Source: a bacterium
GTDB lineage: Bacteria > Chloroflexota > Dormibacteria > Dormibacterales > Dormibacteraceae
Length of the DNA: 64,000 nucleotides
Assembly: GCA_004299235.1 (NCBI GenBank)
Contig: SCQL01000033.1
Span: 1 to 64,000 of the forward strand
Direction of reading: 5' to 3'
The notes beneath the pieces were generated by a model. It ran no database searches. It was not told where the DNA came from and saw only the letters and a program-made list of their open reading frames with translations. Positions within the stretch are counted from its first letter, which is position 1, and the number at the start of each line of letters is the position of its first letter. Both the position numbers and the translations under genes were made by a program. Positions 53,905-59,151 of the stretch are shown here, in pieces.

Positions 53905-54411
53905 TTAGTCGACCGGCCCTTGGCTGCGGACTTCGTCGACTCTGACCAGGGCCTCGCGAAGGCCTTTGATCCAATCCGCCTGGTGCATCCCCACCAGTCG
54001 CACGCACCAGGCAAGCGCGTCGCTGCGGCTGCGGGCCACCCCGCCCGCGACGAGGGTGTCCAGGATGGAGCGCTCGGACATGCGCAGGCGGGTCATGACC
54101 GGGGCGCTGAGAGTGGTGAAGACCTTCGTCTCCGCGCCACAGCTGGCACCCCAGGCGACCTTGCGGCGGAAGTGACGCTCGGCCTCTCGGGCGATCCTCA
54201 CCCGCTCGTCTCGAGTCTCCTCCCGGAAGCGGTCGATGCGAGCCTCCCGAGCCGCGGCGCGGCCCTCGGCCGAGGTGCCGCTGGCGAGCTCGACGTCAGG
54301 CAGGATCCCGACGACCAGGATCTCCTCTCCATCGGAGGTGACCTCCGGCGGGCCGTAAAACCAGGTCTTGGGGAGCCTGGAGGCAAACCAGGCGCGAATG
54401 TCCTCGGCCAT
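53905..54411 (-). CDS. Hypothetical protein with C-terminal RHH-like region
   Basis: The 168-residue protein starts MAEDIRAWFASRLPKTWFYGPPEVTSDGEEILVVGILPDVEL and has a basic middle part (RIDRFREETRDERVRIAREAERHFRRKVAWG). The C-terminus, RLRMSERSILDTLVAGGVARSRSDALAWCVRLV, resembles a ribbon-helix-helix DNA-binding domain. It lies 48 bp downstream of ssb on the same strand but has its own TAATCT box 8 nt before ATG 54411. Function unknown. Confidence 0.7.
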   Translation of the reverse strand: MAEDIRAWFASRLPKTWFYGPPEVTSDGEEILVVGILPDVELASGTSAEGRAAAREARIDRFREETRDERVRIAREAERHFRRKVAWGASCGAETKVFTTLSAPVMTRLRMSERSILDTLVAGGVARSRSDALAWCVRLVGMHQADWIKGLREALVRVDEVRSQGPVD

Positions 54412-54419
54412 CAATTACA

Positions 54420-54425
54420 AGATTA
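54420..54425 (-). promoter_or_regulatory. -10 hexamer TAATCT of a leaderless promoter
   Basis: On the minus strand TAATCT is followed by 8 nt and ATG 54411 of the RHH-like gene; no Shine-Dalgarno sequence is present. Confidence 0.5.
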
Positions 54426-54459
54426 CTGCGCCCGCCCGCCGGCGGACTTGCGGCGCCCT

Positions 54460-54807
54460 CTAGGCGGCGGCCTCCTGCGGCTTCGGACCGAGCAGCTTCA
54501 GCTCCTCCACGATCACCTCGGTGCGCGAGCGCTTCTGGCCGGCGGTGTCCTGCCACGAACTCGTCTGCAGCCGGCCGTCCGCGTAGACCAACCGGCCCTT
54601 GCGCAGGTACTGGCCGGCAACCTCCGCCTGCCTGCCGAAGAGCACGAGGTGATGGAATTCGGTCGCCTCTTTCGGATTGCCGTCCTCGTCCTTGCCCGTG
54701 TACGTGTTGGTCGCCAGCCGCAGGTTGGCGACGTGCACGCCTTTCGGCGTCGCCTTGACGTCCGGGTCCGCCGCCAGGTGGCCGACGAGAATCACCTTGT
54801 TGACCAT
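54460..54807 (-). CDS. ssb: Single-stranded DNA-binding protein
   Basis: The 115-residue protein has the OB-fold core of SSB: VNKVILVGHLAADPDVKATPKGVHVANLRLATN, EATEFHHLVLFGRQAEVAGQYLRKGRLVYADGRLQTSSWQDTAGQKRSRTEVIVEELKLLG. It lacks the acidic C-terminal tip (DDDIPF) that recruits replication partners and ends PKPQEAAA, so it may be a secondary or specialised SSB. GGAGGTG lies 6 nt before ATG 54807. Just upstream is a 29-bp tandem repeat and the VirB-like/LytM operon on the same strand. Confidence 0.9.
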   Translation of the reverse strand: MVNKVILVGHLAADPDVKATPKGVHVANLRLATNTYTGKDEDGNPKEATEFHHLVLFGRQAEVAGQYLRKGRLVYADGRLQTSSWQDTAGQKRSRTEVIVEELKLLGPKPQEAAA

Positions 54808-54822
54808 TCGAAACACCTCCGT

Positions 54823-54880
54823 GAATGCCGGGCGCGCGCGGGGCGCACCTCGAATGCCGGGAGCGCGCGGGGCGCACTTC
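54823..54880 (-). repeat. Two 29-bp tandem repeats in the ssb leader
   Basis: GAATGCCGGGCGCGCGCGGG... at 54823-54851 is repeated at 54852-54880 with two mismatches (C/A at position 11, C/T at position 27). The second unit lies immediately before the ssb ribosome-binding site on the minus strand. The GC-rich core could fold or serve as an operator. Confidence 0.85.
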
Positions 54881-54937
54881 AAACCTGCCCGCAGCGTAAA
54901 TGCGCACGGCAGGCCTGCAAACCCAGGTGGTTAAGGG

Positions 54938-55435
54938 TCAAGACGCCAGCCACGCCTCCGGGTCGACCGAGCGCCCGTCGACCTGGACCTCGAAGTGGAC
55001 GTGGGCACCGGTCGCCCTGCCGGTAGCGCCGACCTCGCCGATCACCTGGCCGGCGCTGACCGCCTGACCCTCGGCGACGCCGATGACCGACAGGTGGCCG
55101 TAGAAGACGCGCACGTGCGCGGCGGCCGTGACCAGGACGTAGCGCCCCGCGCCTTCAGGATCGAATCCGACGTGCGCCGTCCCCGCCGTGGCGGAGTGGA
55201 CGGCGGAGCCGATCGGAGCGGCCAGGTCGACGCCGGTGTGCACGTGCCGGCCGGGGCAGAACGGGTCGAATGGCTCCAGCTCGAGGCTCGTGCACCCGAA
55301 CGGCTGGCTGACGCGCGCGCCCGGGACGACCGCACCCATGGGCAGCCTCACGTGGCTCGGAACTTGCGAGGCGATCACCATCCAGACCAGGAGAGCGCCG
55401 GCGCCGAGCCCGGCCGCACGCAGCAGGGCGATCAC
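54938..55435 (-). CDS. LytM-type (M23) zinc endopeptidase, membrane-anchored
   Basis: The 165-residue protein has one N-terminal membrane helix (LRAAGLGAGALLVWMVIASQVPS) and a lysostaphin-type peptidase domain with the zinc ligands in HVHTGVDLAAPIG (His, Asp) and GAHVHFEV (HxH), plus VFYGHLS. It should cut peptidoglycan cross-links. GTG 55435 overlaps the VirB6-like gene stop by 4 bp, so it is last in the VirB2-VirB6-peptidase operon. Peptidases of this type help conjugation machines pass the cell wall, which fits the neighbours. Confidence 0.9.
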   Translation of the reverse strand: MIALLRAAGLGAGALLVWMVIASQVPSHVRLPMGAVVPGARVSQPFGCTSLELEPFDPFCPGRHVHTGVDLAAPIGSAVHSATAGTAHVGFDPEGAGRYVLVTAAAHVRVFYGHLSVIGVAEGQAVSAGQVIGEVGATGRATGAHVHFEVQVDGRSVDPEAWLAS

Positions 55436-56331
55436 GCCGCGTGCGCGACCAGGTGCTCGAAGCCGTGAAACGCGTGCGTTAGCGCCGACTCCAGCCGGTG
55501 AGCCGCCTTCTCGGCGCCTCCCATCGCACCGGGCACCTTGAAGACGATCAGCAGCGAGGCCAGCGCGAACAGGTGATGGACCGGCGAGTGGCCGCCGTTC
55601 TCCAACCCGAAGCCGATCGCCAGGACGAAGAGCTGCGCCGGCTGCATCAGCAGGTTGGTGATCAGGAGCGAGCTCCAAAGCTTCGACATGTGATGGGTCT
55701 CAGGCAGCGTGAAAAGCAGACCCGCAAGCGGCGCCGTGATGGCGAGCACGATGAGGATCGCGTAGCGGACCAGGTACGTGATCGCGAGCACGTCGTAACC
55801 GGCCGCCAGCGCGCCGGTGGTGACGATCTGCCAGGCCCCGGCGGTCTGGTCGAGCCCGTAGTTGTTCCACCAGTCGTTCCAGTTCGGGATCGTGCCGAAG
55901 CTGTAAACGGCGGCGCTGAGGGTGTTGCTGATCTGAACCGTGGCCTGGAACAGCGGCAGGGCGAAGTTGATCAGCACCACGCCCATGAACAGGCGCGGCA
56001 GCAGGATGCGGGCCGTGTACTGGGTGCGAAGCCCGTGGCCCCACATGATTCGATACGAGGCCCAGACCGCGACCAGGACGAGGGCTGAGTCCGCCACCGC
56101 CTGGACCGCGGGCTCGAAACGCTGGATCGTCAGGTTGGTGACGAAATCGCCGCCGGTTTCGAAGTCGGTGATGCTGAGGATGAACCCGAACCAGACCTTC
56201 AACAGGAGACCGAGGCTGTTGTCGACCAGCCACGCCACCACCAGGTTGGGGTGCCCGAGGGGCCACAGGGCGCCGTCGATCCGGCCGACCGTCTCGTAGA
56301 TCAGCTTCAGGTAGCTGTAGATCTGGTCCAT
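55432..56331 (-). CDS. VirB6/TrbL-like polytopic membrane protein
   Basis: The 299-residue protein has about six membrane segments (VAWLVDNSLGLLLKVWFGFILSI; VADSALVLVAVWASYRIMWG; ILLPRLFMGVVLINFALPLF; AILIVLAITAPLAGLLFTLP; LLITNLLMQPAQLFVLAIGFGLE; HHLFALASLLIVFKVPGAMGG) with RLFMGVVLINFALP resembling the conserved region of type IV secretion VirB6/TrbL proteins. The gene starts 6 bp after the VirB2-like gene and overlaps the LytM gene by 4 bp. No VirB4, VirB11, VirD4 or relaxase genes are in the window. The VirB6 link is from topology and context. Confidence 0.78.
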   Translation of the reverse strand: MDQIYSYLKLIYETVGRIDGALWPLGHPNLVVAWLVDNSLGLLLKVWFGFILSITDFETGGDFVTNLTIQRFEPAVQAVADSALVLVAVWASYRIMWGHGLRTQYTARILLPRLFMGVVLINFALPLFQATVQISNTLSAAVYSFGTIPNWNDWWNNYGLDQTAGAWQIVTTGALAAGYDVLAITYLVRYAILIVLAITAPLAGLLFTLPETHHMSKLWSSLLITNLLMQPAQLFVLAIGFGLENGGHSPVHHLFALASLLIVFKVPGAMGGAEKAAHRLESALTHAFHGFEHLVAHAA

Positions 56332-56337
56332 CGGCGG

Positions 56338-56607
56338 TCAGCGGCTCGATGCTGGCACCGAGTTGGTCAGGATGTTGACCAGCGAGCCGGCGACCTCGAC
56401 GCCGATCGTCCCCACGACGATGCGCTGAATCCACTGCTTGGCGGCCAGCGCCGACTTCGACTCCGCCGCGGTGATCTTCCAGATGAAGGCGAATATGAAG
56501 GCCAGGATCCCGATCGATCCGACCAGCGCCTGGCCGATGTTGATCCAGGTGTTGATCAGATCCTTGAGCTTCGAGATATCCGGATCCGCGGCTGCCAAGA
56601 ATTCCAT
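56338..56607 (-). CDS. VirB2/TrbC-like pilin protein
   Basis: The 89-residue protein has two membrane helices (IGQALVGSIGILAFIFAFIWKI, and WIQRIVVGTIGVEVAGSLVNIL) separated by a short basic loop (TAAESKSALAAKQ), the plan of VirB2/TrbC pilins. It starts at ATG 56607 with AGGAGG 7 nt upstream, one of the strongest ribosome-binding sites in the window. It leads a three-gene operon with the VirB6-like and LytM proteins. No obvious signal peptide is visible, which differs from most VirB2 proteins. Confidence 0.75.
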   Translation of the reverse strand: MEFLAAADPDISKLKDLINTWINIGQALVGSIGILAFIFAFIWKITAAESKSALAAKQWIQRIVVGTIGVEVAGSLVNILTNSVPASSR

Positions 56608-56711
56608 GTCAGGCCTCCTGCGCGTTTCTTCGCAGGCTACGTTCGGCCCGGTCCCACGGGAACCCCGCCTGTTAAGCCGTCCAGGTCGTGGAGCCAAGGG
56701 CAGCCGTGGCC

Positions 56712-56723: not shown

Positions 56724-58154
56724 GTGGCTCGGAAGCTCGCCGAGTACGAAGCCAAGAGAGATTTCCAACGCACGCCCGAACCCGGCGCCAGGGTGCCGCG
56801 CCAAGGCGCCAGGGCGCCGCGGTTCGTCGTCCAGGAGCACCACGCTCGGCGCCTGCACTGGGACTTCCGCCTGGAACGCGACGGCGTGCTCGTCTCATGG
56901 GCGGTGCCGAAGGGCATCCCGCCCGATCCGAAGAAGAATCATCTGGCGGTTCACGTCGAGGATCATCCCCTCGACTACATCGACTTCGCCGGTCAGATCC
57001 CGGCCGGCAACTACGGGGCGGGCCAGGTCTCGATCTGGGACCACGGCACCTACGACACCGAGAAGTGGTCGGATCGCGAGGTGATGGTCACCCTGCGCGG
57101 CGAGCGGCTGAACGGACGCTACGTGCTCTTCCAGACCGGCGGCGACAACTGGATGATCCACCGGATGGACCCGCCCCAGGATCCCGACCGCCAGCCGATG
57201 CCCGAGCGCATCGAACCCATGATGGCCAAGCTCAGCTCGGCCCTACCCTCGCCGGACGCGGGCTGGGGGTTCGAGTTCAAGTGGGACGGCATTCGCGCGC
57301 TGGCGCACGTCGAAGGCGGGCGCGTGAGGCTCATCAGCCGCAGCGGCGAGGACGTCACGGCCCGCTATCCGGAGGTGCACCCCATGGGCCGTGCGCTCGG
57401 ATCGCGTGAGGTGATCCTCGACGGCGAGGTCGTCGCCCTCGACGAAAGGGGACGGCCGAGCTTCGAGGAGATCCAGCAGCGCATGGGCCTCAGCTCGGAG
57501 CCGGAGGTCCGCCGCAAGATGAAGCTCGTGCCGGTGACGTACATGATCTTCGACCTGCTGTGGCGGGACGGCCATTCCCTGCTGGCGACGCCCTACGACG
57601 AGCGCCGCCGCCTGCTCGCGCGGCTCGAGCTGAGCGGTGCATCTTGGCAGACGCCACCGTTCGAAAGGGGCGGCGGCCGGGCGATGCTCGATGCCAGCGC
57701 CAAGGCGGGGCTCGAAGGCGTGATGGCGAAGCGGCTCGACTCGCGCTACGAGCCCGGGCGGCGAGGCGGCGCCTGGCTGAAGATCAAGAACCGCGGCCGT
57801 CAGGAGCTGGTGATCGGAGGCTGGCTGGAAGGCGAGGGCAAGCGCCGCGGACACCCGGGCGCTCTGCTCGTCGGCCATTACGACCACGGCAAGCTGGTCT
57901 ATGCCGGCAAGGTGGGCACCGGGTTCACGGATGCGATGCTGGACAGGTTGCACGACCTTTTGCAGCCGCTGGCCCAGGACTCCAGCCCGTTCGAGGTCGG
58001 TTCACCGCCCCGGGCCGCCAATTTCGTCAAGCCCAGGCTCGTGGCCGAGTTCGAGTTCGTGGAGTGGACGCGGTCCGGCCAGCTGCGAGCGCCGTCGTTC
58101 AAAGGCCTGCGCACCGACAAGCCCGCACGCGAGGTCGTACGCGAAGGTGGCTAA
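56724..58154 (+). CDS. ligD: LigD-type ATP-dependent DNA ligase with 3'-phosphoesterase domain
   Basis: The 476-residue protein combines two domains of bacterial NHEJ LigD. Residues about 30-155 are the 3'-phosphoesterase domain (FVVQEHHARRLHWDFRLERDGVLVSWAVPKG, HLAVHVEDHPLDY, IPAGNYGAG). Residues about 165-470 are the ATP-dependent ligase with the nucleotidyl-lysine in FEFKWDGIRALAHV and later motif LILDGEVVALDERG-like sequence. It seals DNA ends after break repair. GTG 56724 follows TAACCT by 6 nt. The polymerase domain is a separate overlapping gene. No Ku gene is in the window. Confidence 0.93.
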   Translation: MARKLAEYEAKRDFQRTPEPGARVPRQGARAPRFVVQEHHARRLHWDFRLERDGVLVSWAVPKGIPPDPKKNHLAVHVEDHPLDYIDFAGQIPAGNYGAGQVSIWDHGTYDTEKWSDREVMVTLRGERLNGRYVLFQTGGDNWMIHRMDPPQDPDRQPMPERIEPMMAKLSSALPSPDAGWGFEFKWDGIRALAHVEGGRVRLISRSGEDVTARYPEVHPMGRALGSREVILDGEVVALDERGRPSFEEIQQRMGLSSEPEVRRKMKLVPVTYMIFDLLWRDGHSLLATPYDERRRLLARLELSGASWQTPPFERGGGRAMLDASAKAGLEGVMAKRLDSRYEPGRRGGAWLKIKNRGRQELVIGGWLEGEGKRRGHPGALLVGHYDHGKLVYAGKVGTGFTDAMLDRLHDLLQPLAQDSSPFEVGSPPRAANFVKPRLVAEFEFVEWTRSGQLRAPSFKGLRTDKPAREVVREGG

Positions 58155-59151
58155 GGAGACCTCTGTCGAAGTCCAGATCGACGGCCGCACGCTCAAGCTC
58201 ACCAACCTGGAGAAGGTCCTGTACCCGGAGGTCGGGTTCACCAAGGCCCAGGTGATCGACTACTACACGCGCATGGCTCCGGTCATCCTGCCTCACACGC
58301 GCGACCACCCGCTGACCCTCAAGCGGTATCCCAACGGGGTCGACGCGGAGTTCTTCTACGAGAAGAACTGCCCCAAGCACCGGCCGCCGTGGGTGCAGAC
58401 CGCAACCGTGTGGAGCGGCGGCAACAACCGCGACATGTACTACTGCCTGGCGCAGGACCTGCCCACGCTCGTCTGGCTGGGCAACCTGGCGACGCTGGAG
58501 TTCCACACCTCGCTCTCCCGCGCCGACGACCTGCCCCAGCCACGGACTCTCGTCTTCGACCTCGACCCCGGGCCGCCCGCGACCATCGTCGAGTGCTGCC
58601 GTGTCGGGTTTATGGTGCGCGACCTCTTCGCCGAGCACGGCCTCGAGTGCTGCGCCAAGACCTCGGGCTCGAAGGGCCTGCAGCTCTATGTGCCGCTCAA
58701 CACCAAGGTCTCGTACGTCGAGACCAAGGTCGTCTCGAAGGGCCTCGCCCAGCACTTCGAGGAGCGGCATCCCGACAAGGTCGTGCACAAGCAGCTGAAG
58801 GAGCTGCGCACGGGCCGCGTGCTCATCGATTGGAGCCAGAACGACCAGTACAAGACGACCGTCAACGTCTACTCCCTGCGCGCGCGGGCGAGGCCCACCG
58901 TTTCAACGCCCGTGACGTGGGCGGAGGTGGAGGAGTGCGCCAGGGCCGGCGACCCGAGCCTTCTGGTTTTCGACTCCGAGCAGGTGCTCGCACGCGTCGC
59001 CAGGCATGGCGATCTCTTCGAGCCGGTGCTCAGCAAGAAGCAGAAGCTGCCGAAGTCGCTGGTCGAAGCCATGGGCGGAGCGACCGCGCTGGAGAAGATG
59101 GCGAACCGCCGTCGGGGCACCGGGCGATTCCCCAATCCGGCTGACGGGTGA
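58147..59151 (+). CDS. LigD primase-polymerase domain protein
   Basis: The 334-residue protein is the stand-alone polymerase domain of LigD: LKLTNLEKVLYPEVGFTKAQVIDYYTRMAPVILPHTRDHPLTLKRYPNG, NLATLEFHTSLSRADDLPQPRTLVFDLDPGPPA (catalytic Asp pair DLD), TSGSKGLQLYVPL and VLIDWSQNDQYKTTVNVYSLRARARPTVSTPVTW. It fills gaps and adds ribonucleotides at breaks. GTG 58147 overlaps the ligase gene by 8 bp and the next gene overlaps it by 4 bp, so ligase, polymerase and NDH-2 are one operon. Confidence 0.94.
   Translation: MAKETSVEVQIDGRTLKLTNLEKVLYPEVGFTKAQVIDYYTRMAPVILPHTRDHPLTLKRYPNGVDAEFFYEKNCPKHRPPWVQTATVWSGGNNRDMYYCLAQDLPTLVWLGNLATLEFHTSLSRADDLPQPRTLVFDLDPGPPATIVECCRVGFMVRDLFAEHGLECCAKTSGSKGLQLYVPLNTKVSYVETKVVSKGLAQHFEERHPDKVVHKQLKELRTGRVLIDWSQNDQYKTTVNVYSLRARARPTVSTPVTWAEVEECARAGDPSLLVFDSEQVLARVARHGDLFEPVLSKKQKLPKSLVEAMGGATALEKMANRRRGTGRFPNPADG

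Follow-up and report, generated by a model that had tools for sequence, protein, structure and literature searches.

A chromosomal, minimal type IV secretion-like apparatus of Dormibacterota with a probable role in DNA uptake

The window, i.e. the whole 64,000-nt stretch of DNA that was analysed, carries on its minus strand a run of five genes which, in the order of transcription, encode a pilin, a VirB6-like protein, an M23 peptidase, an SSB and an AbmR-type protein (window positions 53905-56607; Table 1). The original prediction had placed a VirB2-like pilin, a VirB6/TrbL-like protein and an M23 peptidase here, packed into one tight operon followed by ssb, and the coordinates as well as the profiles bear out this trio. 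The virB6 gene starts 6 nt past the pilin stop codon, the M23 gene overlaps virB6 by 4 nt, and a ribosome-binding site, AGGAGG, precedes the pilin gene. The M23 peptidase was clearly identified (PF01551 at 85 bits in Pfam for the window protein), has one N-terminal membrane helix and contains HTGVD and HVH motifs; likewise, the product of ssb is a clear SSB (110.9 bits in Pfam). The ssb gene adjoins the trio in the predicted order, but the gap between the M23 gene and ssb contains a promoter box of its own. Thus, ssb is an adjoining unit with a like promoter and not simply the fourth gene of the operon. The AbmR-type gene adjoins ssb in nearly all relatives from the family of the window genome (family f1).

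Table 1. Features of the pilin locus in the window, with the evidence for each
Feature	Position	Strand	Basis
VirB2-like pilin, 89 aa, two hydrophobic helices	56338..56607	-	sequence, profiles
VirB6/TrbL-like polytopic membrane protein, 299 aa	55432..56331	-	sequence, profiles of orthologues
M23 (LytM-type) wall peptidase, 165 aa, GTG start	54938..55435	-	PF01551
SSB paralogue without tail, 115 aa, stop just past OB fold	54460..54807	-	SSB profile
AbmR-type ATP-binding transcription factor	53905-54414	-	NCBIfam, 242.8 bits, cut-off 160
Ribosome-binding site AGGAGG, 6 nt 5' of pilin ATG	56614..56619	-	sequence
Promoter box CTTAACAGGCGGGGTTCC 5' of pilin operon	56659..56676	-	27.5 bits, matrix from 15 other genomes
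-10-like hexamer TAGCCT of pilin operon, 19 nt past box	56634..56639	-	sequence
Promoter box CTTAACCACCTGGGTTTG 5' of ssb	54918..54935	-	21.1 bits, same matrix
-10-like hexamer TACGCT of ssb, 19 nt past box	54893..54898	-	sequence
Two LigD-type genes, divergent from pilin operon	56724-59151	+	

Taken alone, the window pilin and the window VirB6-like protein fall under the Pfam cut-offs (PF18895, 12.4 of 26.6 bits, and PF19597, 13.7 of 27 bits, respectively). Among 20 VirB6 orthologues from the class, TrbL_4 was matched by 17 (best 2.5e-13) and TrbL/VirB6 PF04610 by 10 (best 7e-4); similarly, 7 of 20 pilin orthologues from the class matched the T4SS_pilin family PF18895 (best 7e-4). The parts are T4SS-like, as had been proposed. 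The VirB6/TrbL assignment is settled, at the level of the family and with the window protein itself sub-threshold, by the profile matches of orthologues from other families. The orthologues also support, without proving it, a VirB2-type identity of the pilin; this family-level assignment is the weakest link. Structural comparisons contributed little: the AlphaFold2 model of VirB6 had a pLDDT of 50 and was too poor for use, Foldseek and VIA-align with the pilin model returned a coiled-coil protein as the sole match, and the pilin profile retrieved nothing from the PDB beyond TraM (E=0.3). The corresponding searches with VirB6 and with the protein p196 described below were uninformative.

In the 16 closest relatives, the order pilin-virB6-M23-ssb-abmR-amine oxidase-uppP was kept in every sufficiently long locus, with 74-85% identity to the window protein for the pilin and 56-72% for VirB6. 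Thus, the arrangement of the pilin gene, virB6, the M23 gene and ssb is not due to chance. The VirB6 profile matched 97 of 110 class genomes, spanning all four families sampled. Nearly all class members scored above 285 bits, and matches elsewhere in the phylum were sporadic, reached at most ~150 bits and were often multicopy. This conservation, together with the gene order kept in relatives, fits the stable chromosomal function that the original prediction had suggested; moreover, the two outcomes that it had named as speaking against it, i.e. no profile similarity to T4SS components and a trio that is not conserved, were both checked for and neither occurred. LigD-type genes keep to one side of the pilin operon in relatives, many of which have 3-6 kb inserted between. 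This interval is variable and in the four loci read contained genes for an MFS transporter, a TetR-type regulator and a Fic-like protein as well as unrelated genes; the idea that virB4 might reside there was rejected, as these four loci held only unrelated genes. In one locus, the intact pilin gene is preceded at ~0.9 kb by a second, truncated pilin gene with its own box (L010:8774-8967).

An ATPase encoded elsewhere had been anticipated, and a PrgI(VirB3)-VirB4 operon is indeed present in the window's own genome, on the same contig (C33) at 124.3-127.4 kb and ~68 kb from the trio. Both products exceed the Pfam cut-offs, PrgI with 32.4 bits against 27 (PF12666) and VirB4 with 46.8 bits against 25.8 (PF19044, P-loop_TraG). 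This VirB4 matches the CD1110 VirB4 family at 2.8e-71 and has intact Walker motifs (Walker A GHSGAGKT, plus LVVDE), and the VirB4 profile matched the VirB4 structure 4ag5 in the PDB at 5e-36. The general VirB4 model TIGR00929 matches many ATPases, and strong matches alone were taken further. VirB4 of the CD1110-like type was present in 94 of the 110 class genomes, and its presence is associated with that of VirB6 (p=0.0035), a signal to which genome completeness and shared ancestry contribute. In family f4, both halves reside in a single cluster, PrgI-VirB4-p196-dtd-pilin-VirB6. In families f2 and f3, VirB4 is encoded within a Tad/Flp pilus locus (L146, L152, L153, L155, L156), in several cases next to an RcpC/CpaB-like gene. 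The gene for p196, a conserved protein of 196 aa that belongs to no known family (L029:8324-8914 on C33 of the own genome, G000), lies directly 3' of virB4 in families f1 and f4 and shares a reading frame with virB4 in the own genome and in G001. From gene content and linkage, we concluded that the trio and PrgI-VirB4 belong to a single machine.

VirB4 was not detected in six VirB6-bearing genomes of genus g16 (G020, G026, G030, G076, G082 and G085), and these genomes count against an uptake apparatus; G020 is 95% complete. In two genomes of genus g20 (G025 and G048), neither VirB6 nor VirB4 was detected, which suggests that both halves of the apparatus were lost jointly. Directly upstream of the own prgI-virB4 lie a transposase gene and an IS21-like istA/istB pair (L029:12023-15630, G000:C33:128022-131629), which leave the promoter box described below intact. 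A dedicated VirD4 was not found: the single PF10412 match of the own genome is weak and unlinked (contig C19), and five genomes with both VirB6 and VirB4 lack PF10412. T4SS without VirD4 exist, e.g. ComB (PMC12857230), and the missing VirD4 is therefore compatible with a T4SS. No relaxase was noticed on reading the gene lists beside the loci.

An alignment of family-f1 sequences upstream of the pilin gene gave a box with the consensus TTAAC-N3-C-N2-GGTTY, followed 19 nt further by TANNNT. With a matrix built from 15 genomes other than that of the window, only two sites in the 64-kb window scored above 9.1 bits, i.e. those of the pilin operon, which was the best, and of ssb (Table 1). In the stretches of the own genome that were scanned, boxes were also found upstream of prgI-virB4 (22.3 bits), the p130 gene (20.0 bits) and comEA-comEC (19.9 bits), and the next-best upstream score among 116 predicted genes was 12.0 bits, within the same comEA intergenic region. 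The stretches scanned with the matrix were picked partly for holding candidate genes; therefore, the unbiased genome-wide evidence is the count for the strict pattern, which matched 52 sites in eight family-f1 genomes compared to 1 for the reversed pattern. The own prgI and comEA boxes fall outside the strict pattern and were found by the matrix. Across family-f1 loci, the TANNNT hexamer was present at a fixed distance of ~19 nt in 76 of 99 unique sites of at least 16 bits. In most family-f1 relatives the box occupies a like place 5' of ssb, and several genomes of this family have the comEA-comEC box in common. The recurrent targets are the pilin operon, ssb, prgI-virB4, comEA-comEC, the p130 gene and the genes for a PLD-family secreted protein, a YgjP-like peptidase and a secreted protein of ~420 aa; some strict matches had no clear downstream gene. 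Sites inside cysS in three genomes were judged a coding coincidence.

The box is known from family f1 only and was not seen upstream of f2-f4 genes in the regions inspected; this restriction counts against an uptake apparatus. The f2 pilin promoter of G023 has a different operator-like sequence, ACACAAGTCTGTGT, and a pattern search with it matched none of the other loci searched. No SOS/LexA box pattern was found upstream of the pilin gene. The AbmR-type protein is a candidate regulator of the box. Altogether, the profile and promoter data define a set in which the pilin, the VirB6-like protein, the M23 peptidase, PrgI and VirB4 are class-wide, are encoded in one cluster in family f4, and in family f1 have a box in common with a tail-less SSB and comEA-comEC.

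SsbB of B. subtilis lacks the C-terminal tail. In Dormibacterota, at least two SSB matches per genome were present in 17 of 18 genomes examined, the exception being G068. The own housekeeping SSB is encoded in rpsF-ssb-rpsR and ends in DPDEIPF. The acidic tip was present in the housekeeping SSBs read and was missing from all intact linked SSBs examined. Accordingly, the linked SSB, an OB fold without the acidic C-terminal tip that exists beside a separate housekeeping SSB, corresponds in architecture to the SsbB type. Competence SSBs coat incoming strands (reviewed in PMC12236230).

The own genome encodes ComEA-ComEC and DprA as well as a complete type IV pilus. Neither the type IV pilus locus nor dprA of the own genome has a box, and the type IV pilus alone could be the agent of DNA uptake, which counts against a role for the T4SS-like apparatus. 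One own Tad locus has a box of 24.0 bits before its CpaB-like first gene (L187:4664, G000:C29:62663); the corresponding site in G005 is weaker (L184:10486). In three f4 genomes with an intact T4SS-like cluster (G066, G068 and G072), no ComEC was found, and this also counts against an uptake apparatus.

The tail-less SSB, the box common to the apparatus genes and comEA-comEC, and the lack of a dedicated coupling protein together favour DNA import over secretion. We therefore consider it probable that these genes encode a minimal apparatus of the type IV secretion kind, domesticated in the chromosome, that contributes to DNA uptake, and hence to natural transformation, together with ComEA/ComEC; homology and the common promoter element are read from the sequence, and import is what we infer from them. 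Of the original proposal of a minimal DNA-transfer or secretion system, the T4SS-like nature stands, but the trio makes up just one half of the system, and the evidence points to import, not secretion. The data suggest a stripped-down conjugation machine that became fixed in the chromosome of an uncultured soil class (Dormibacterota), with a machine that is usually a DNA exporter rewired for import.

In such a mechanism, some cue would activate the promoter box. PrgI would hold VirB4 at the membrane, and VirB4 would drive the extrusion, and perhaps the retraction, of a VirB2 pilus or pseudopilus on a VirB6 platform, while the M23 peptidase would open a gap in the wall for passage of the pilus. 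The VirB2 pilus or pseudopilus would deliver DNA to ComEA, and ComEC, perhaps with VirB6, would translocate one of the strands, which the tail-less SSB would coat once it is in the cytoplasm. The Tad/Flp pilus may aid in DNA capture.

Alternatively, the apparatus could be a surface pilus or protein-secretion device for adhesion, predation or cell contact, like the T4SS of Patescibacteria, with an incidental sharing of promoters with DNA genes. The relaxase-poor chromosomal T4SS of Patescibacteria are linked to epibiotic growth (PMC12102498), and the box is also present on three further protein families, secreted or membrane-bound; however, SSB, ComEA and ComEC are the closest and best-kept partners, and no effector or adhesin genes recurred beside the trio in the loci of relatives that were read, so that we regard a surface device as unlikely. 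Similarly improbable is a domesticated conjugation apparatus that exports chromosomal DNA or delivers DNA to kin, with the SSB shielding single strands. Every core part is conjugation-derived and an SSB is useful also to conjugation donors and recipients, but this alternative is at odds with the missing dedicated VirD4, with the gene lists beside the loci, in which no relaxase was noticed, and with a promoter box that ties the apparatus genes to the DNA importers ComEA-ComEC. Finally, a decaying remnant of an integrated conjugative element, to which the sporadic, weaker and often multicopy homologues outside the class, as for mobile elements, and the IS21-like pair upstream of the own prgI-virB4 could point, is contradicted by intact frames, many invariant residues, Walker motifs, class-wide synteny and the conserved promoter, and is most improbable.

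A literature search, which covered sources outside subscription journals, found no description of such a system for Dormibacterota. In Helicobacter pylori, the ComB system contains homologues of VirB2, VirB3, VirB4 and VirB6, is devoid of VirD4, is encoded in separate chromosomal operons and has ComEC as its partner (PMC13395361, PMC12857230). The Dormibacterota system is like ComB in its VirB2/B3/B4/B6 set, in having no dedicated VirD4 that was found, and in the split operons of the own genome. VirB7-VirB10 and the VirB11 ATPase are further components of ComB, none of which was noticed among the genes of the Dormibacterota clusters, whereas the M23 peptidase, the linked tail-less SSB and the common promoter box are extra in Dormibacterota. 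We claim no common descent with ComB as a competence system; the likeness would be one of working.

The archaeal Ced and Ted systems, which import DNA, comprise chromosomal VirB4, VirB6 and a VirB2-type pilin with no known relaxase (PMC9905601). The Dormibacterota system has the like chromosomal set, to which it adds PrgI/VirB3, the wall peptidase, ComEA-ComEC and the SSB. The own VirB4 gave only weak matches to the CedD/CedB models; the likeness to Ced thus lies in the gene set, and we claim no sequence relation. The T4SS of Patescibacteria, mostly without relaxase and tied to epibiotic growth, consist of chromosomal VirB4, PrgI/VirB3, VirB6 and VirB2-like pilins (PMC12102498). The Dormibacterota system resembles them in gene content; however, Dormibacterota are free-living soil bacteria, and their promoter link is of the DNA-uptake type. 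The closest named profile families for VirB4, PrgI and the pilin-like protein are those of mobile monoderm VirB4/PrgI/TrbL systems (CD1110, Mbov_0396/0397 type), but in contrast to these mobile elements the Dormibacterota synteny is chromosomal and fixed class-wide, and no dedicated VirD4 was found for the system. Tad genes are reported to be tied to transformation in Micrococcus luteus (PMC4322843); the VirB4 within the Tad locus in families f2 and f3 and the one own Tad locus with a box are reminiscent of this.

On balance, though with somewhat less assurance than for uptake as such, we favour the view that these genes encode a second bacterial T4SS that serves DNA uptake and is independent of the first, i.e. 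a class-inherited minimal VirB2-B3-B4-B6 apparatus that supplies ComEA-ComEC with DNA and is under a promoter element common to both. In the family in which ComEC was not found, the apparatus may move DNA through the membrane on its own, as thought for Ced. If so, this second bacterial case would mean that conjugation machinery has been redirected to import on more than one occasion. It would also offer a lead on how DNA reaches a soil class that is known chiefly through metagenomes, and the promoter box would become a marker for finding uptake genes in uncultured genomes. The relevance would extend to Patescibacteria, a neighbouring lineage whose T4SS mostly have no relaxase.

Two further proteins with a box may belong to the same context. 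The p130 protein of the own genome is a 137-aa single-pass membrane protein of no known family that is encoded just past the end of the window (G000:C33:64140-64553, L158:641-1054); in seven of eight genomes searched, the gene and the pilin operon are ~8-12 kb apart, and p130, which across its relatives measures ~130 aa, is a possible further component of the apparatus. The secreted PLD-family protein (L128:1183, L122, L131, L135), possibly a nuclease acting on incoming DNA, is encoded ~9-10 kb from comEA-comEC where both were found.
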